DNA from: Chlorobiaceae bacterium
GTDB taxonomy: Bacteria > Bacteroidota > Ignavibacteria > UBA10030 > SZUA-254
Direction: 5' to 3'
Length of the DNA stretch: 64,000 bases
Assembly: GCA_013824245.1 (NCBI GenBank)
Contig: PNNN01000050.1
Coordinates: 1-64,000 of the forward strand
The notes beneath the pieces were generated by a model. That model had not been told where the DNA came from, did not search any database, and saw only the letters and a program-made list of their open reading frames with translations. The translations under genes were made by a program, and so were the position numbers. The stretch's first letter is position 1. Every line of letters begins with the position of its first letter. Below are positions 31,800 to 41,856 of this stretch, piece after piece.

Positions 31800-33155
31800 G
31801 TGAAAGCCGTTTTTGTAAGAGCACTATTTATTTTTGTTCTTTTTGTATTTAGTTTTTCCATACCCCTCAATGCCCAGGATGTGAGTATCGGCGCTTCGCT
31901 CACTAATGATCCGAACATTTTTGATACTTACACTCCCCTGAAAGACAATGTCACCGAAATCGCGTTTGATATTTCAAAAGGAGTGGTTACCGAAAATAGT
32001 TATTTCGGTATATTTTACTCGGGCGCGCTTTCGTTGTATGAAAACTTACCTTCTCGTAATTATCAATTTCACATGGCAATGGTCGGGTATAATTATCATT
32101 TTACAAAAAAGATAGATAATGACACTTCAGAAAGTGAGGCGATGCTTTCGGACGAAGATTCAATTTCATCATCAGATGATGATACAATCGAAGCAATGAA
32201 TACAGATGACGATGTTTCAACTGCCGAAATGGAAGAAGAACCTACCGATAGTTTGGATAATTTTTTGAATATCAGATTTACCGGTGGATTGCAGTTGAAT
32301 AAGGTCGATTATGAGAGTTGGGATAATACTATTCTCGCAGGCACATCAATATTTCGCCAACCACTCGGCAGACACGCAAGCATTCGCCCTTCATACACAA
32401 TTATATACAATTCTTACCCGAATCTGACGGCGCTTACAAATATTCAACATAACATTTCACTCATTCTCGGAACAGATGTTTTACCGTTTAGTTGGTTTGC
32501 TGTAATACCAACATTTGGAGCGAAAAGTTTTCCTAACACACAAACCGATTCAATAATTTTATCAAAAGATTCCAAAAGTAAATTTGATGGGAACGGCACA
32601 ACAACGGGAAAAACTATTTCCTATAATTTAACAACACCCTCAGTAACGCAAACATCATTTACATTATTGTGGAATTACAGACCTGCACCTGCAACATATT
32701 TCACAACCAGATTTACACATTTTAACACGCCATCGTCGATAGCGCGCACTATTCCTGAACTTCGAAAGGGAGCGGCAAAAACCAATGACATGCTTATCAA
32801 AAATTCATTCGGAGAAAATGAATTATACGACGATCATTATTCATTTTCGGGGAACATAATTTCAATCGGCGTAGTGCAAGCGCTTCCACAGGAATTATCG
32901 TTTACAGGTTATTGGAAATACGAAAATAAAACGTACAGTTATGCAGCAACCGATTTTGCGGATTCTGTTATCGCCAATAATCGTGTAGACACGCGGACAG
33001 AGTTCGAGTTAAATTTTTCCAGATTATTTGAAATTACAGAAGAGACCAATTTGAGAGCAGAGATAGGATTCCATTATATAAAGAATAGTTCAAATTCTTT
33101 ATACTTCGATTTTAAGAAGAGTACATTGATGGCGGGAGTTGAGTATAGTTTTTAG
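31800..33155 (+). CDS. Hypothetical outer-membrane beta-barrel-like protein with acidic insert
   Basis: A 451-residue exported protein starting at GTG 31800 with AAAGGGGA upstream. The signal peptide is residues 1-26 (ending PLNAQD). The body has repeated beta-strand patterns with aromatic ends and finishes in MAGVEYSF, an outer-membrane-like final strand ending in F. Residues about 110-160 are a very acidic Ser/Asp/Glu-rich stretch, longer than a usual loop, and may bind cations or face outside. The gene is convergent with the exopolysaccharide operon and may be unrelated to it. No family name. Confidence 0.75.
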   Translation: MKAVFVRALFIFVLFVFSFSIPLNAQDVSIGASLTNDPNIFDTYTPLKDNVTEIAFDISKGVVTENSYFGIFYSGALSLYENLPSRNYQFHMAMVGYNYHFTKKIDNDTSESEAMLSDEDSISSSDDDTIEAMNTDDDVSTAEMEEEPTDSLDNFLNIRFTGGLQLNKVDYESWDNTILAGTSIFRQPLGRHASIRPSYTIIYNSYPNLTALTNIQHNISLILGTDVLPFSWFAVIPTFGAKSFPNTQTDSIILSKDSKSKFDGNGTTTGKTISYNLTTPSVTQTSFTLLWNYRPAPATYFTTRFTHFNTPSSIARTIPELRKGAAKTNDMLIKNSFGENELYDDHYSFSGNIISIGVVQALPQELSFTGYWKYENKTYSYAATDFADSVIANNRVDTRTEFELNFSRLFEITEETNLRAEIGFHYIKNSSNSLYFDFKKSTLMAGVEYSF

Positions 33156-33220: not shown

Positions 33221-34501
33221 TTATTTTTTATTCACAGCCACATCAAACCTCTCCGTTTTCACCCATGTTCGTTTTTCTCTCTTTATTACGTCTAAATAGA
33301 TTGCTCTTCCGACAATATAAATCCACACCTGGCAATAGGTGAAATACATCAAAAATGTGAGCAGAAGATTAGAGAATTTATCTTCCCGGTCGTACGATAA
33401 AGCGAGCAATATCTCCATCAAGAAGAGAACAATGCCTACAATCCAGACGAGCGTGTAAGGTCCGGGTAAATTAATGACAACGATATTAAAAACTCCGAGG
33501 AGGAAAAGTATATCGGAACTTACAAGCGCTACAAGAAAAACATAGTAAAGAGAGAGCATGTAAAGCAATTCAACTGCGAGAAATTTATTTTTAAACGACG
33601 GGATCTCTTTCAGGAATTTTTTCCCGACATAATTGTTTCCCTGCACCCACCGCGTACGCTGTTTAATCCAAACATTCCACGATTCCGGCTCCTGTTCGTA
33701 CGTTATCGAGTATGGAACGAATTTAATGCGGTATCCTTCCATGTATATTCTAATGCTTAACTCCGAATCTTCTGTAATCGCATCTTCGTCCCATCCATTC
33801 AGCTTGTCTAAAAGACTGCGGCGGATGACAAGATTTGTTCCGGGTAGTGTGGAAATCTTGAACATCTTCCAACGCCCCGATTGCAACATAGATTGAAAAC
33901 CGAGCGTCTCAATATTTATGAAGCGTGTTAATAAGTTTCGGTTCTTGTTAATGGTGCGAAATTTACCCAACACCGCCCCAAGCGATTTATCTTGAAGCAT
34001 TTGAACCATCAAATATTTCAACGCTAAGGGGTCGGGAGTATTATCTGCATCATAAACGGCTACATACTCGGCGGTAGTTTGTTTCAAACCAAGATTGAGA
34101 GCGCGCGATTTCCCTTTGCCACCCTCACCCTTTGGTACATCATAGAGACGTAAACGAGAATCTTTGATTGCATATCCCTGAACAATCTCAGCCGTCCGAT
34201 CCGATGAACCGTCGTTGATTACAAGAATATCTAATTTATCTTCGGGGTAATCGAGATGAAGCATCGCCTCAATTGTGTAAGAGATAACCTTTTCTTCATT
34301 ATGAGCGGGAATAAGAATTGTTACTTTCGGAAAATCGAATTCCATCGTATCCACTTTTTTCTTCTCTTTCCGTGAGGATCTATAGTGGAAGAAACCTGCC
34401 ATCGTCAAAATCAACTGGTAAAAAATCATGAACCAGATGAGAATGACAGAAAGTACAAAGATAATACTGAGATCGAGTTCAAGAAGCGATCCACTTGGCA
34501 T
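33221..34501 (-). CDS. Processive family 2 glycosyltransferase (exopolysaccharide synthase, YdaM/PgaC-like)
   Basis: A 426-residue membrane GT2. I chose ATG 34501, whose A is the last base of the upstream gene's TAA stop, giving a TAATG stop-start coupling. Catalytic marks are TILIPAHNEE at the start of the GT-A domain, NDGSSD, the D-x-D (YDADNTPDP), the acidic EDSELSIRIY and the Q-R-T-R-W motif of processive synthases. One N-terminal and three or four C-terminal helices would form the export channel. It would polymerise a nucleotide-sugar-fed polysaccharide; the monomer is unknown, with N-acetylglucosamine as one option by analogy to PgaC. No PilZ domain is seen. The partner upstream is the large deacetylase-hydrolase protein. 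Confidence 0.88.
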   Translation of the reverse strand: MPSGSLLELDLSIIFVLSVILIWFMIFYQLILTMAGFFHYRSSRKEKKKVDTMEFDFPKVTILIPAHNEEKVISYTIEAMLHLDYPEDKLDILVINDGSSDRTAEIVQGYAIKDSRLRLYDVPKGEGGKGKSRALNLGLKQTTAEYVAVYDADNTPDPLALKYLMVQMLQDKSLGAVLGKFRTINKNRNLLTRFINIETLGFQSMLQSGRWKMFKISTLPGTNLVIRRSLLDKLNGWDEDAITEDSELSIRIYMEGYRIKFVPYSITYEQEPESWNVWIKQRTRWVQGNNYVGKKFLKEIPSFKNKFLAVELLYMLSLYYVFLVALVSSDILFLLGVFNIVVINLPGPYTLVWIVGIVLFLMEILLALSYDREDKFSNLLLTFLMYFTYCQVWIYIVGRAIYLDVIKREKRTWVKTERFDVAVNKK

Positions 34502-37500
34502 TAACGTTTTTCCTCTCTCGGACGCGTAAACCTGACCATCGTATAAAATCCGATAAGCATCACTCCTGAGAACATGCCGAACGCAACGATAAACCACGAA
34601 GACCAGAAACTCGTTATATCCACACCGTATGAGACAGTAGTTTCAAGAACTGCAAGAACATGATGTTCGCCGGGTGGAAGAACTGCGGTGAAGCGGCGAT
34701 GTCCGGCGAGGATAGGAACGATAGTTTCTTTGTCGTCGATATAAATATTGTATGGTCTATGGCTAAACGAAGCATAACAACGCGTCGAGCTGCTGTAACT
34801 TACTGAGACACTCCGGTTAGAATTGATCAAGCCGAGCATTTTGCCTGAGATTGTGAGTAGTTTCCCCGGTGCCGGCATTGAAGTATTAAAAAGCTCTCCT
34901 TCACTTTTATCCGCAGAAAGAATATGATTGCCGGCAGGGAGTAAAAACATTCCTCTATCGGATGTAATTCGCTCGCCGGTTGATGTTGTGAGGGCTGTAA
35001 AATTTTGGGGAAGTTCAAGCATAACCGGAAAAGGTGTAGATAGCTTCCATCCGTTAGGAATAGTTGAGATAGAAGCAGATGCGGAAGCGGCATAACTCAT
35101 CATGCGCAAATCTTGCGGGCGTATGCTCGACTCGGAATACAACGAAAATCTTTCAGCCGATGCGGCTGCAACATTAACCAGCATATAACTTTCTATCCCG
35201 GTTTGAACGAGAGTTGGAAAAATAGTCGGCTTCTTCTCATCGCGAAACTGAAGGATATTAATATCTATCATAACGGCGTCTTTTTCACCAAGCAACGATT
35301 TATATCTTTCTGCAATTACAGAGTATCTTCTTGGATCTTTCGACCACTCGCTTTGCGGATCTTCAATCTGCAGGGTAAAGTTGTATTTCTTTTTCAATTC
35401 GTTTATTCTAATCGCGTCCACTCCGTGATTTTTTCTCAGCTCCGGATTTCCAACATCATCCATAACCGTCAGCACAACATCGAAGTAGGGCTTTTCTGAC
35501 TTTACTTCCCCGATCATCATAAGAAATTCTTCATGCAGTTTCGACAATCGGTCAACCCTGTACTCTTCATAACGTTTCCACGCGTAAGCGTTCTTTTTCC
35601 AATAATATTCCGACTTCTCATCAAAAAGATTAGCCGGATCGAAACCGTAAAGTTTCTTGAACTCACTTCGTGCCGAAGGGTGCATGGGAGTCATCAAGTT
35701 CGAATTTTCCGGTCCATCGGTTCCCGCTTCAAAATATAACTCTGCAACGTTTACGCCGTCCCAATCATGTTGCAAAAGAAACGATTTGTACATATTTTTA
35801 ACTTCATTCAAACAATTACTGTCGGTTAAGGCAACAGGGAAACGCCACGATGCAATCACCGGCTCTCCGCGAAAATTTAGTTCTTTCCATTCAGGATGAT
35901 CTTTCCAGAATTTTTCTGAAACGTGCGGCGGTTCCAACCAGGCATAAACTAAAATACCATTTGCATGACAAAGCTCAATTAACCGTTTGTAATTGTAAGT
36001 CCACTTTTCATACTGGTGCCAGCCAACCGCATGAACTATCCGTATTCCATCGGCAACCCAACGTTTTACTAAATCTTCGACACTTATATTATGCCTGTAT
36101 CCGGGATCGAAAAATACTTCAAGATTTTCGCGGCGCAAGATCGGCTTCAGGTGAAAGAATGAGCGTATATATTCCATAAAATATGGAAATCTGCTGTAAC
36201 CGCCGGTGGACATAGGATCGAATCTCGTACCGAGGAAAATAAATTTTCCCTTCCCATACGTTCTGCCGATTACAACAGGTGCATCAATTTTTTCTTCACT
36301 ACAAAGTATCTCGTCTTCTGGAAGAAAATCAAATCTTGTCATTATTTCAGGGAATTTTAAAACAAGCGCATCTGAAGGATATAAATGATCCCGCATCCGG
36401 TCAATTTTTATTTTAGAATCTGTAAACTTAATTCCCAATTCTTCGGCAAGATAATTTTTACCATCGGTAACAACATTTCCTCCTTCTTCAAGAAATTGTA
36501 CGATGATATCATAATCTCTATCCCGGAGGCGTTCCACATTATTGTAAGGAACTACCACTAAATTATAACCTTGCAACGAAGGGGGAGTATCTAAACTAAG
36601 AGTATCCACTTCAATATTTAAAGATCGGAAGGCAGAGGCAAAGCTCGCCTGGTTGTTGTATGATCCGCCTTTGGCATCAGGATCCCAAAGAAGTGCAACG
36701 CGAGCAATATCATATTTCTCTTCAGATTTTAGAACATTATCCCACAAATTTTTAACATCACCTTTAAAGCGATCGAACCATGCCAATTCGATCTCTTTAA
36801 ATTCCAATGGCTCTGCAACAAAAATTTCACCGGGCAAAAGCTTGACCTGATCTTTTATCTTTCCCTGAATCCGTTCCGAAGAAACTTCGCGGAGACCGAT
36901 ATCGCCATCGGGTTGCAACAATGTCTTCCTGAAAAACTGATCATCCAATGTTATTTCATACAACTGCGAACCTGTAATCACGATATGATTATTCATCTCC
37001 ACTCGCAGGTTTAATTCTTTTACGTCGATAAAAGTGTAGCCAAGCTTTTTTACGCCGTCGACATATTCTTCTATGTATTCGATATCGATAAAAGAATGGA
37101 TGAACGCCGAGGCAAATCCGTCGCGGACGGCAAGCTGCATCTTGGCGCCTTTCAATAATTTTTGCACTGCTTCTTCTTCCACTTCGCGGTTTTCATCCAG
37201 TGGTATGTAACCGAGGTTTTCGGGCAAAAGACGCTGTCCAAAAAGATCGCGCTCGATGATATACGGAAAATATTGACTGTAATCGGGATCATCAAGAACG
37301 CACCGTTGTTCCATTGCTGTGGAGAAATATTTGGCGAAAATAGGGTAATCGTCCTGCGATGCCATATAATGAGGAGTTTCCCAGACGAGTGGATATAGAT
37401 TATTTTTCCAAAATTCCTCCAACCCCATTTTCATTTTCTTTTCAACATAAACTTTCGAATCTTCATTCAACTTACGATTCGTACTTGCGTCCCAGAATTC

Positions 37501-38457
37501 AAAATCGGTTGCTGTTGTTCCCTGATATTGGTGAGTTATTCCGTGCATGACTATGGTGGCTCCGCGAGACACCATATAACGAAGGGCATCCACCATCTCC
37601 GGTTTATCCGATAAACTAACACGTAAACCGCGGTCAGGATCAACGTAGAAAGGTACAACACCGACTAAAAATGGAACGTCTTTCGAGTTTAACGCATCAG
37701 CTACATCGCGAAGCCGCTCCGGATTTTCGAATACCGTAACATCCTCGATTCTCAGAAGAGCTCTGTGAATTTCGGCATGTGGTTGACCCAATAAATCATG
37801 AAGCATATCTGCAAAATAAATATACCGGTCTGTTTCTGTTGCCGAGGCAAACGGTGAGTCGGCGATATACATAAAGTTTTCAACTCTGATTATATACGGC
37901 ACTTCGCGCCCTGTCGCGGTTGAAAACGCTGTGGCAATAACATCGACATCATCATTTCTTAAAACATTTATAATGTTGATGTTTGGTTCGCCCTTGGTAA
38001 AATCTCTGCCGCCTGCGGTTACAATATCATAATTTGAAACTGTATCTAAGCGTTCGAATTTAAAACCGTATTTCTTAGCAAGATCATATTTCGAATCGAA
38101 ATATTCCATGCCTGTGTTCATCCACACAAGCATTTTATCCGGCGAGTAAGCTTCGCGCAAAAATTTCTCAGGCGGATCGTAACGTTTGCTGAATCCGATG
38201 AAAAATGTAATATCATAATTCTTCATCTCGTTGCTTTTGTAGGATTCTACACCTTCGATCTTGTATTCAACTTTGAAATGACCCAAGAGCATTGCAAGCT
38301 GACGGGCATCGCCACGGGCGTAGTTATTCGGAGTATCCTGTCCTTCAAATAGAATCAGAACCTTTTTCGCTTCTGATGCAAGACTGCTATTAAACAGGAA
38401 AATTAGGGGCAAGAGAAAAACAAGGAGAATATATCGTATCTTCATGTATGTAAACAT
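34501..38457 (-). CDS. Multidomain DUF2334 deacetylase-like and glycoside hydrolase-like protein (YdaL/PgaB-like)
   Basis: A 1318-residue envelope protein. Start ATG 38457 or 38445 (MKIRYILLV); the signal peptide ends near residue 27 (LAS). Residues about 30-225 form a Rossmann-like domain. Residues about 228-480 are a DUF2334 deacetylase-type domain with RIED (236-239) and the H305-x3-H309 pair (VMHGITHQYQ), which are typical metal ligands. Residues about 575-760 look like a ThuA/GATase-like domain. Residues about 770-1130 resemble a TIM-barrel hydrolase (RIVHAVGWHQYEKW, GILVYAWLEPPH, W-D-G-V-N-V-A-E-L-Y-F-E-A). One membrane helix lies near the C-terminus (FIVAFGMFSGVMLIGFYTM). Bacillus YdaL-YdaM and E. 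coli PgaB-PgaC give similar pairings. It probably trims and modifies a polysaccharide made by the coupled synthase. Confidence 0.78.
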   Translation of the reverse strand: MFTYMKIRYILLVFLLPLIFLFNSSLASEAKKVLILFEGQDTPNNYARGDARQLAMLLGHFKVEYKIEGVESYKSNEMKNYDITFFIGFSKRYDPPEKFLREAYSPDKMLVWMNTGMEYFDSKYDLAKKYGFKFERLDTVSNYDIVTAGGRDFTKGEPNINIINVLRNDDVDVIATAFSTATGREVPYIIRVENFMYIADSPFASATETDRYIYFADMLHDLLGQPHAEIHRALLRIEDVTVFENPERLRDVADALNSKDVPFLVGVVPFYVDPDRGLRVSLSDKPEMVDALRYMVSRGATIVMHGITHQYQGTTATDFEFWDASTNRKLNEDSKVYVEKKMKMGLEEFWKNNLYPLVWETPHYMASQDDYPIFAKYFSTAMEQRCVLDDPDYSQYFPYIIERDLFGQRLLPENLGYIPLDENREVEEEAVQKLLKGAKMQLAVRDGFASAFIHSFIDIEYIEEYVDGVKKLGYTFIDVKELNLRVEMNNHIVITGSQLYEITLDDQFFRKTLLQPDGDIGLREVSSERIQGKIKDQVKLLPGEIFVAEPLEFKEIELAWFDRFKGDVKNLWDNVLKSEEKYDIARVALLWDPDAKGGSYNNQASFASAFRSLNIEVDTLSLDTPPSLQGYNLVVVPYNNVERLRDRDYDIIVQFLEEGGNVVTDGKNYLAEELGIKFTDSKIKIDRMRDHLYPSDALVLKFPEIMTRFDFLPEDEILCSEEKIDAPVVIGRTYGKGKFIFLGTRFDPMSTGGYSRFPYFMEYIRSFFHLKPILRRENLEVFFDPGYRHNISVEDLVKRWVADGIRIVHAVGWHQYEKWTYNYKRLIELCHANGILVYAWLEPPHVSEKFWKDHPEWKELNFRGEPVIASWRFPVALTDSNCLNEVKNMYKSFLLQHDWDGVNVAELYFEAGTDGPENSNLMTPMHPSARSEFKKLYGFDPANLFDEKSEYYWKKNAYAWKRYEEYRVDRLSKLHEEFLMMIGEVKSEKPYFDVVLTVMDDVGNPELRKNHGVDAIRINELKKKYNFTLQIEDPQSEWSKDPRRYSVIAERYKSLLGEKDAVMIDINILQFRDEKKPTIFPTLVQTGIESYMLVNVAAASAERFSLYSESSIRPQDLRMMSYAASASASISTIPNGWKLSTPFPVMLELPQNFTALTTSTGERITSDRGMFLLPAGNHILSADKSEGELFNTSMPAPGKLLTISGKMLGLINSNRSVSVSYSSSTRCYASFSHRPYNIYIDDKETIVPILAGHRRFTAVLPPGEHHVLAVLETTVSYGVDITSFWSSWFIVAFGMFSGVMLIGFYTMVRFTRPREEKR

Positions 38458-38598: not shown

Positions 38599-41500
38599 AT
38601 GAAACTCAAGTTCTTACTATTATTGTTATCCTTCACTCAATTTGCCTTCCCGCAATGGGAATGGCAATCACCCCAACCGCAAGGTAATACACTATACAAT
38701 GTTCAATTCATAGATACATCCAACGGCTGGGCTGTTGGAGAATTCGGCACAATAATCCACTCAACAAATGGCGGTAATGACTGGACTGAACAAGAATATG
38801 GTCGCACCGATGATATTTTATATTGCAATATGATTTCAACCACAACCGGTTGGGCTGTTGGGGATAATGGGACCATTCTTTACACATCCGATGGCGGCGC
38901 AAATTGGCTCGAGCAGCAAAGTGGAATTAGCACAGGATTGAATTCCGTTTCATTTATTGACGCGATGAATGGTTGGGTAGTCGGCGATCAGGAAATTATC
39001 CTCCATACAACAGACGGTGGAATTAATTGGTTGATACAACGACAAACTTTCAATTTGATAAGTATTAATGCGGTTACATTTTTATCTCTAACAGATGGGT
39101 GGGCTGTTGGAAGTAAAGGTAGAATATTTCATACAACCGATGGCGGTACAACATGGACATCACAAGCGATTGGATCCACAACAATTACATTTCTTCATAT
39201 TGCATTTGCAGATGCCTCACTCGGTTTTATTGTTGGATCCGATGGCACACTCTACCGAACCGATAACGGGGGAACATCATGGAGTCCGATCAGCACATCC
39301 GAATCGGTAAACTTCAATCGTGTTTGCATGCTTAATACATTTGTTGGATGGATTGCCGGCGATGGTGGAAAAATTCTTCGCACACTTAACGGTGGTTTAT
39401 CATGGTCATCTTCAACAATTGCATCGGGTGAAAACTTGAATGGATTAAGCCGAGCCGGAACTAATCTCTGGTCGGTTGGTGAATATGGTAAAATAATGAA
39501 ATCTACAAATAATGGAATAAGCTGGATAAATCTTGATTCGGGAACTCGCCTGAGTATAAATTGGATCAGCTTGACTTCGAATAATACCGGTACGGCAGCA
39601 GGACAAGAAGGATTATTGCTTCGGACAACGGATAACGGTTTATCATGGCAGCAACTTACATCTCCTACTCCTGCCCTTTCGTCGTTTGGCGTTAGTATGA
39701 TAGATGAAACTCACGGCTGCGCAGTTGGGGAAGAAGGAAACATACTTCGCACAACAGACGGCACAACATGGCTTAAACAACCGAGTCCCACTACACACAC
39801 ACTTTTTGGGATCGACTTTGCGAACGAATCTGAAGGATGGATTGTTGGAGGAGACCCGGTTAATTATACCGGGATAATACTCCATACAATAAATGGCGGA
39901 GCTGATTGGTCAATTCAAAATTCATTGATGCCGCATATGGTTTACGGAGTTTCATTTGTTACCCCGCTGATTGGCTGGGTTGTTGGAGATTTCGGTATAA
40001 TTTTCAATACAACAAATGGTGGAATTTCATGGTCACCTCAAACAAGCGGTATTAACACAGTGCTTTATTGCTGTACCTTTTCCGATCAAAATAACGGATG
40101 GGCAGTTGGAGATTCGGGAAGAATTCTACACACAAGCAATGGCGGAACAACATGGGCACAGCAGAATTCCGGCTCCAATGTTATTCTCTTTTCAATTGCC
40201 AACAATGGAGCGAACGAATTGACCGCCGTTGGCGACCTTGGCACTATTCTTCATACGACGGATGGCGGAGAACACTGGTATTCAGAATATAGCAGAACTG
40301 TTTATTCACTCTATTCAATCGCAAACAACGGTAAATTCATATCTGTCGGTGATTATGGAACGTTACTCGGTTTCAACGCACCAGAACAGTTCGGAACTGT
40401 TTCCGGTGCTTTATTCTTCGATCAAAATCAAAATGGCATTAGAGATTTATCCGAAACCGGTTTAGCCGGTTGGCAAATTACAATTGCGGGTTCTCAAACT
40501 CAACAAACTACCACAGATATTAACGGCAACTTTGAATTTATAAATTTACCATTAGGCGCATATACTGTAACCCAGACTTTGCCGCCTTCATGGATAAATA
40601 CATTTCCTGGTTCTTCAAACAGCTACTCATTTTCATTAACAACTCAAGCGCTAAACTATTCTTGTCTCTTCGGAAATTATACTCCCTCAACCATCGATTT
40701 CAATCTGCGCAGCGGGTGGAACCTCATCTCAATGCCGATAAGTTTAGTTGATCCTTCGTTATCGACAATATTTCCAAATGCAATTTCGAAAGCGTTTTTC
40801 TTTGAAACCGGATATAATATGACTGACACTCTTAAGCCCGGTCCCGGATACTGGATAAAATTTCCTTTCGATTTTTCTGCATATGTGGCAGGGACACCAA
40901 TTGAGGACGATACGATCCAGGTTCAAAGCGGTTGGAATATTATTGGTTCTGTGGCAAGTCCTCTTTCAACACAATCGATCGTCAGCATACCTCCTGATAT
41001 AGTTTCATCCCGATATTTTGGTTACGCAACAAGTTATTTCGCTGCCGATACAATTATGCCCGGTAAAGGTTACTGGGTGAAGGCATCCGAGCCGGGGACT
41101 TTAATCCTTCGTCAGAATAATTCTTCTCTGCTTAAAAATCAACCTTGCTCGAACGAAATTTTATCTGGAATCAATCAGCTCATAATTTCAGATGCTGTTA
41201 ATAATTCTCAAACTCTTTATTTCTCAAACAAATCTAATATCGATTCTAAAAATTTTATTTTACCACCGGTTCCGCCCGAAGAAGGATTTGATGTTAGATT
41301 TAATAACGGATCTCAAATCTTTAATTTCTCCGATAACGAAAAAACTGCTGAAGCTAAAATCGATCTCCAAGCATATATCCCACCAGTTAAGATGGAGTGG
41401 AATATATTAGACAATCAACAAAATTATTTTTCACTCTCCAATAAACGAGGTGGAAATAAAATTGCATCTTTAAATTCAAAATCCGGTAGCGTTACAATTG

Positions 41501-41856
41501 ACAATATCGAATCGAATAATTTATATCTGAATATCGAATCCGACGGTAAACAAATACCTATTGAATATTCGCTGATGCAAAACATACCGAACCCATTTAA
41601 CCCGACGACGAATTTCCAATTTTCAATTGCCAACCTGCCTGCCGGAGCACACGGCACGCAGGCGGGTTCACAATTGACGACTTTGAAAGTCTATGATATG
41701 CTGGGCAGGGAAGTTGAAACGCTTGTAAATGAAGTGTTAAATCCAGGCACGCACACAGTTACATGGGATGCTTCGGGTTATTCGAGCGGAGTATATTTCT
41801 ATCGGTTACAGTCAGGAAAATTCACTGATGTTAAGAAGATGATATTGGCACGATGA
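38599..41856 (+). CDS. YCF48-repeat T9SS cargo protein
   Basis: A 1085-residue secreted protein. The signal peptide ends near residue 18 (AFPQWEW). From about residue 20 to 595 there are 13 complete and one shortened YCF48-type repeats, each like G-W-A-V-G-x-x-G-x-I-x-H-T-x-N/D-G-G-x-x-W. Fourteen fits two seven-bladed propellers. Next comes an SdrD-B-like domain (GALFFDQNQNGIRDLSE, about 600-690), then beta-rich segments and a T9SS type A domain (MQNIPNPFNPTT, LKVYDMLGREVETL, G-T-H-T-V-T-W-D, G-V-Y-F-Y-R). The peptide LPAGAHGTQAGS between TNFQFSIAN and LTTLKVYD is encoded by a palindrome inserted in frame. A surface or secreted scaffold role is likely; nothing suggests photosystem assembly. 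Confidence 0.87.
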   Translation: MKLKFLLLLLSFTQFAFPQWEWQSPQPQGNTLYNVQFIDTSNGWAVGEFGTIIHSTNGGNDWTEQEYGRTDDILYCNMISTTTGWAVGDNGTILYTSDGGANWLEQQSGISTGLNSVSFIDAMNGWVVGDQEIILHTTDGGINWLIQRQTFNLISINAVTFLSLTDGWAVGSKGRIFHTTDGGTTWTSQAIGSTTITFLHIAFADASLGFIVGSDGTLYRTDNGGTSWSPISTSESVNFNRVCMLNTFVGWIAGDGGKILRTLNGGLSWSSSTIASGENLNGLSRAGTNLWSVGEYGKIMKSTNNGISWINLDSGTRLSINWISLTSNNTGTAAGQEGLLLRTTDNGLSWQQLTSPTPALSSFGVSMIDETHGCAVGEEGNILRTTDGTTWLKQPSPTTHTLFGIDFANESEGWIVGGDPVNYTGIILHTINGGADWSIQNSLMPHMVYGVSFVTPLIGWVVGDFGIIFNTTNGGISWSPQTSGINTVLYCCTFSDQNNGWAVGDSGRILHTSNGGTTWAQQNSGSNVILFSIANNGANELTAVGDLGTILHTTDGGEHWYSEYSRTVYSLYSIANNGKFISVGDYGTLLGFNAPEQFGTVSGALFFDQNQNGIRDLSETGLAGWQITIAGSQTQQTTTDINGNFEFINLPLGAYTVTQTLPPSWINTFPGSSNSYSFSLTTQALNYSCLFGNYTPSTIDFNLRSGWNLISMPISLVDPSLSTIFPNAISKAFFFETGYNMTDTLKPGPGYWIKFPFDFSAYVAGTPIEDDTIQVQSGWNIIGSVASPLSTQSIVSIPPDIVSSRYFGYATSYFAADTIMPGKGYWVKASEPGTLILRQNNSSLLKNQPCSNEILSGINQLIISDAVNNSQTLYFSNKSNIDSKNFILPPVPPEEGFDVRFNNGSQIFNFSDNEKTAEAKIDLQAYIPPVKMEWNILDNQQNYFSLSNKRGGNKIASLNSKSGSVTIDNIESNNLYLNIESDGKQIPIEYSLMQNIPNPFNPTTNFQFSIANLPAGAHGTQAGSQLTTLKVYDMLGREVETLVNEVLNPGTHTVTWDASGYSSGVYFYRLQSGKFTDVKKMILAR
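41632..41668. repeat. Palindromic repeat inside the sorting-domain coding region
   Basis: AACCTGCCTGC (41632-41642) and GCAGGCGGGTT (41658-41668) pair at 10 of 11 bases with a 15-nt loop. The sequence encodes extra residues (LPAGAHGTQAG) in the T9SS domain. A related CTGCCTGCC/GGGCAGGC palindrome lies in the element at 17508-17648. Confidence 0.55.

Follow-up and report, generated by a model that had tools for sequence, protein, structure and literature searches.

The window analysed here (a stretch of 64,000 nucleotides of contig PNNN01000050.1, from a Chlorobiaceae bacterium) carries the gene of a polysaccharide synthase coupled to the gene of a 1318-aa protein, labelled BIG in this work, which raises the question of what polymer such a pair produces and how it is modified and brought to the cell surface. 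Both open reading frames were confirmed (Table 1). The synthase begins with an ATG at 34501, within a TAATG that overlaps the stop codon of BIG, in agreement with the start/stop coupling claimed in a preliminary description of this DNA; the 458-aa frame listed for the synthase only opens at a GTG further upstream. Its product matches GT2 families of Pfam down to E 1.5e-31, contains DAD, TED and QRTRW motifs (the description had named D-x-D and QRTRW) and has four hydrophobic helices according to hydropathy.

Table 1. Features of the locus (window positions; residue numbers are those of BIG)
Feature	Position	Strand	Remark
Outer membrane β-barrel, 451 aa, candidate exporter	31800..33155	+	convergent in the window
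GT2 processive-type synthase, 426 aa	33221..34501	-	ATG inside TAATG overlap
BIG, 1318 aa, predicted periplasmic, inner-membrane-anchored polysaccharide-modifying protein	34501..38457	-	
C-terminal TM anchor, residues 1284-1302	34552..34608	-	conserved YGVxxTSxWSS motif before the helix
C-terminal β domain, residues ~1128-1275	34633..35076	-	model to residue 1227, rest by position
(β/α)8 barrel, predicted glycoside hydrolase, residues ~777-1125	35083..36129	-	alignment, model, Foldseek
Second αβα domain, residues ~580-750, GH42 trimerisation-like	36208..36720	-	profile and model
Small β domain, residues ~485-551	36805..37005	-	model
DUF2334 (PF10096), predicted metal-dependent de-N-acetylase, residues 232-467	37057..37764	-	
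Segment between signal peptide and DUF2334	37789..38367	-	model, alignment, HMM
Signal peptide, residues 1-28	38374..38457	-	hydropathy (hydrophobic stretch 10-28)
YCF48/PSII_BNR propeller protein, 1085 aa, T9SS-type C-terminal sorting domain	38599..41856	+	

Of 100 relatives, 50 have full-length or partial homologues of BIG. When one genome per species was scanned, 211 relatives came to light, distributed among Ignavibacteria, Bacteroidales, Acidobacteria, Elusimicrobia, Desulfobacteraceae and Spirochaetes MAGs, with the full-length architecture kept down to 32% identity across six lineages. The best 80 of the 211 were examined as loci. A GT2 gene lies directly downstream of BIG in 73 of the 75 loci with enough sequence, and 1 and 4 kb away from it in the remaining two. 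Given this adjacency and the occurrence of homologues in half of the relatives and in several phyla, the pairing is not due to chance: as had been supposed, BIG and GT2 are an exopolysaccharide (EPS) synthase/modifier pair, one that is real, ancient, widely conserved and accompanied by outer membrane partners. A general function of the locus in EPS synthesis and modification is likely; a defence role was also checked, and no sign of one was seen.

BIG consists of a signal peptide, an αβα domain, a DUF2334 domain, a β domain, a second, GH42M-like αβα domain, a TIM barrel, another β domain and one C-terminal transmembrane helix, the latter being the membrane helix reported earlier. The AlphaFold2 model of residues 28-1227, built with 81 homologues, is confident (mean pLDDT 90.3, pTM 0.87), and its secondary structure follows the order αβα - CE - β - αβα - (β/α)8 - β. 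The DUF2334 profile matches with 163.9 bits against a curated cut-off of 26 (E 4.9e-48), and the motifs first recognised as deacetylase-type proved to be strictly conserved: RIED (236-239), HGxTH (305-309), RDG (445-447) and H454 are invariant in the 81 homologues, and the metal and CE-type motifs are also invariant in an alignment of six unfused proteins. The conserved deacetylase residues, in the window numbering, are E238/D239, H305/H309, E360, R445 and H454. In place of the single ThuA/GATase-like insert of the preliminary description, there are two αβα domains, the first of which belongs to the DUF2334 unit and is present in unfused relatives too, and the second of which, in front of the barrel, has a GH42M-like stretch at residues 604-664, just under the Pfam cut-off. 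The profile of BIG, searched against the PDB, found only GH42, for this second αβα domain, and phmmer with the whole protein gave no useful PDB match; a viral fold library returned barrel matches and one archaeal-virus deacetylase. Larger versions of BIG, of 1660 aa (L107:8404-13401, L097, L139:6217-11193), have a GHL10/GHL6-like barrel in addition, placed N-terminally of the deacetylase, giving two barrels per protein and a PelA-like N-terminus.

The C-terminal TIM-barrel-like region is indeed a (β/α)8 barrel in the model. A Foldseek search of the PDB with the BIG model gave 194 matches at E<=0.001, and among the matches listed barrel glycosidases prevailed rather than folds of another kind: Cwp19 (TM 0.59 by target length), the PgaB/BpsB GH domain 6au1 (E 5.4e-8, TM 0.64 by target length), GH42 and GH36. 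Acidic residues are located after strand 4 (E906), strand 6 (E1032/D1033) and strand 8 (E1109), as well as in strand 7 (D1065), and the whole conserved set comprises W840, E842, E906, D1000, E1032, D1033, D1065, N1067, E1089 and E1109. With conserved acids at the strand ends of a (β/α)8 fold, the domain is a predicted glycosidase, and BIG unites a DUF2334 deacetylase with a glycosidase-type barrel, as the preliminary description had it. All these residues recur in stand-alone paralogues, secreted proteins of 730 aa, which consist of the second αβα domain, the barrel and the β domain and have neither deacetylase nor anchor, suggesting that the barrel is an enzyme rather than a scaffold. It might still be a module for binding or guiding the chain, in which case BIG would be only a deacetylase with accessory domains, since barrels can be non-catalytic and this one has no significant match to any named GH family of Pfam or NCBIfam. 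Such a role is, however, unlikely, because its strand-end acids are invariant in the 81 fused proteins and retained in the secreted paralogues, and because unfused systems have GH113 or DUF4434 genes at the corresponding place. The barrel is a candidate for a glycosidase family not named before, and enzymes of this type might find use against such matrices. The ~730-aa paralogues (L073, L074, L094, L116-L126) are convergent with GT2 in Bacteroidales and located elsewhere in Ignavibacteria genomes. Another secreted protein, GH42-like and of ~541 aa, adjoins the system in Acidobacteria and Desulfobacteraceae (L037, L039, L044, L058, L070, L109, L111).

The preliminary description saw no outer membrane porin beside the pair; this was not the case, since the gene next to the synthase encodes a β-barrel of exporter size. 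According to clustering of flanking genes, its family is co-directional and directly after GT2 in 15 related loci, with the gene order WecB-BIG-GT2-OMP-YCF48 in L043, L049 and L052. The AlphaFold model (pLDDT 76.9, loops disordered) is a barrel of ~16 strands that matches the folds of OprD, AlgE and the PgaA barrel 4y25; as general porins match equally well as exporters, its role in export may only be proposed. The family is diverse (about 20% identity) and is missing beside many BIG loci. On the other side of BIG, divergent and separated by a 141-bp gap, lies the gene of the propeller protein, in which numerous YCF48 repeats are combined with an SdrD_B domain and a Por secretion tail; the YCF48 family recurs at the locus in relatives. 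One acidobacterial locus (L105:4286-7971) has, between BIG and GT2, an unrelated 298-aa β-rich outer-membrane-like protein and a YVTN propeller, and this looks like a functional replacement of the barrel and YCF48 proteins. Some Bacteroidales (L078, L079, L080, L084, L087) encode a ~280-aa β-rich secreted protein before WecB, a possible alternative outer membrane partner.

The earlier observation that no c-di-GMP receptor is adjacent to the locus was correct: neither a BcsB-like partner nor a GGDEF receptor is found among the flanking window proteins scanned, both GGDEF proteins of the genome are on other contigs, and the genome has no PilZ. This would fit a pair that acts on a short glycan of the cell wall or a lipid-linked one, both synthesising and trimming it, instead of on an EPS, and DUF2334, being uncharacterised, leaves room for it. 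A short glycan is nevertheless improbable as the product, given that GT2 is of the processive type, with QRTRW and membrane helices, that an outer membrane barrel is recurrent in the operon, and that the published ydaJKLMN operon of Bacillus subtilis is responsible for an EPS, whose composition is unknown (PMC5422440, PMC13274460).

As for the substrate of the EPS pair, a WecB-type UDP-GlcNAc 2-epimerase of ~385 aa is encoded immediately upstream of BIG in 34 of 72 loci, across phyla, and the four products tested are WecB by TIGR00236 (401-502 bits, cut-off 210). wecB was also found beside BIG in four Acidobacteriota genomes and in 17 of the relatives. At a density of ~1.5 wecB genes per 3.3-Mb genome, chance proximity is well under 1% by a simple density estimate. 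A protein tree (FastTree, with long-branch warnings) places the linkage in deep lineages and in a large sister clade, with 12 changes. Since the mere presence of WecB in a genome does not discriminate (48 of 50 genomes with BIG and 42 of 50 without it; 90% of relatives), adjacency alone was used as evidence. There is no linked WecB in the window's own clade, and the single WecB of the window genome sits in an O-antigen-like cluster. One genome, 98% complete (G073), has a full-length BIG and no WecB match, which speaks against strict WecB dependence.

Fifteen DUF2334 loci outside the BIG family were covered as well. Several of them encode remote forms of 260-400 aa with neither GT2 nor WecB alongside, so the link to WecB is not general to all DUF2334 proteins. 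Unfused counterparts of BIG also occur. Comamonadaceae plasmid CP099603.1 (L129:4158-13104) has separate genes of WecB, GT2, DUF2334, an NfrA_C TPR porin and DUF4434, the last one a barrel protein; this operon is flanked by EAL and PAS genes and joins DUF2334 systems to NfrA-type export. On a Streptomyces plasmid, wecB and GT2 are oriented divergently to the genes of DUF2334 and a GH113 protein. Such unfused sets may serve as Rosetta-stone evidence, suggesting that the deacetylase and the hydrolase act on one polymer. GH113 enzymes are described as exclusively endo-mannanases (PMC7710045), and the polymer would then have the mannose configuration in the Streptomyces case. The window GT2 has ~25% identity to the Streptomyces GT2 and to PgaC and no significant match to the Comamonadaceae glycosyltransferase.

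From the association with WecB, together with the published Listeria polymer and the predicted Clostridioides difficile operon discussed below, it is proposed that the polymer is most likely ManNAc-based and partially de-N-acetylated. For the window itself this assignment is made with moderate confidence, as it rests on relatives. The same machine might instead polymerise GlcNAc into a PNAG- or chitin-like chain, with the linked WecB serving a different pathway. WecB is absent beside the loci of the window's clade, PgaC is 26% identical to GT2 over 419 aa, and PgaC_IcaA is the best named family for the synthase; its score of 172.9 bits is, however, far below the cut-off of 422.3 bits, and the equivalog was rejected. 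Moreover, no CE4/GHL13 PgaB, PgaD or TPR porin is present, WecB directly precedes BIG in lineages both deep and shallow, and the window synthase is 47-64% identical to the WecB-linked forms. GlcNAc is a rather unlikely substrate.

The reading preferred here, at a probability of about 0.6, is a synthase-dependent EPS locus with a polymer that is likely ManNAc. The inner-membrane GT2 would polymerise an N-acetylhexosamine, most likely ManNAc supplied as UDP-ManNAc by a WecB epimerase, and hand the polymer to the periplasm. There BIG, kept beside the synthase by its C-terminal helix, would strip part of the N-acetyl groups by its DUF2334 domain, and the barrel domain might cleave the chain as PgaB does with PNAG and PelA with Pel. 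Export across the outer membrane would probably be the task of the neighbouring β-barrel, and the T9SS-tailed propeller may retain the exported chain on the cell surface. Of this picture, the order of the genes, the domain content, the folds, their conservation and the recurrence of the neighbours were observed directly, whereas the enzyme activities, the substrate, the way of export and the part played by the propeller are deduced. As a tentative and somewhat doubtful extension, the loci might represent a widespread Gram-negative pathway of cationic poly-mannosamine/ManNAc EPS, with an anchored deacetylase/cutter, a TPR-less barrel exporter and a T9SS-delivered surface propeller. DUF2334 still goes under the name of a domain of unknown function. 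With its recurrent WecB and outer membrane partners, the two-gene core conserved across six lineages allows the substrate and the way of export to be predicted in a testable form, and a large number of genes that now lack annotation would gain a name.

Among known systems, PelA (CE21) and Agd3 (CE18/CBM87) have neighbouring αβα, deacetylase and β domains, PelA with a hydrolase barrel in addition (PMC12022489, PMC7229062). An αβα-CE-β order was read from the model of BIG, the fold search being dominated by the barrel, but the complete order in BIG is αβα-CE-β-αβα-barrel-β-TM. A profile search of the PDB gave no match to the solved Agd3 or PelA, only weak CE4-like ones, and no pel genes were seen at the locus. 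An operon of C. difficile, predicted to produce a partially deacetylated ManNAc-rich EPS, shares GT2, WecB, a deacetylase and a glycoside hydrolase (PMC7710045), but belongs to a Gram-positive bacterium and has a separate GH113 and a BcsB-like partner. E. coli NGR, for which a ManNAc glycan was proposed, requires WecB, NfrA and NfrB (PMC8669472) and thus has a GT2, an outer membrane protein and WecB in common with the loci described here; it is controlled by c-di-GMP and, unlike them, has no deacetylase/hydrolase fusion. Kinship of the window GT2 to NfrB was rejected (BLASTP E 0.66, not homologous at that level).

The likeness to PgaB-PgaC in logic and to YdaL-YdaM in layout, pointed out in the preliminary description, was upheld. 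As in PgaABCD, the PNAG system, deacetylase and hydrolase are combined in one periplasmic protein beside GT2, and the barrel resembles the GH domain of PgaB in its fold. In contrast to PgaABCD, BIG has DUF2334 instead of CE4, two αβα domains and a TM anchor, PgaD and the TPR porin are missing, and the polymer is probably different. By sequence BIG was rejected as a PgaB, having no CE4 or GHL13 match and only a similar barrel fold; hhalign of the BIG profile with a single PgaB sequence gave a probability of 1%, and comparisons with single GH113 and DUF4434 sequences were uninformative, single sequences being weak partners.

The listerial PssB and YdaL are presumably members of DUF2334, and B. 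subtilis was present in a DUF2334 control search, consistent with this for YdaL. In Listeria monocytogenes Pss (pssA-E) and B. subtilis ydaJKLMN, a deacetylase gene likewise lies beside that of a GT2 synthase, and a DUF2334-type deacetylase directly beside GT2, the mark of YdaLMN/Pss systems, is found in the window. Unlike these systems, the window locus lacks a BcsB-like protein and a degenerate GGDEF receptor next to the pair, its deacetylase is fused to a barrel and a TM anchor, and an outer membrane barrel is present. The Pss polymer of Listeria is built of β-1,4-ManNAc and contains galactose, and its cell-bound form disappears when the PssB deacetylase is lost (PMC6307706, PMC5422440, PMC4817252); Pss is the only chemically characterised β-1,4-ManNAc EPS in the literature searched. 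Of the suggestion that the combination of both layouts points to a distinct polysaccharide type, the combination in one protein stands, whereas the distinctness is weakened, as a ManNAc polymer of the Listeria type is a chemical precedent. The locus is thus a YdaLMN/Pss-like pair with PgaB-like processing, a variant of the known synthase-dependent EPS systems.
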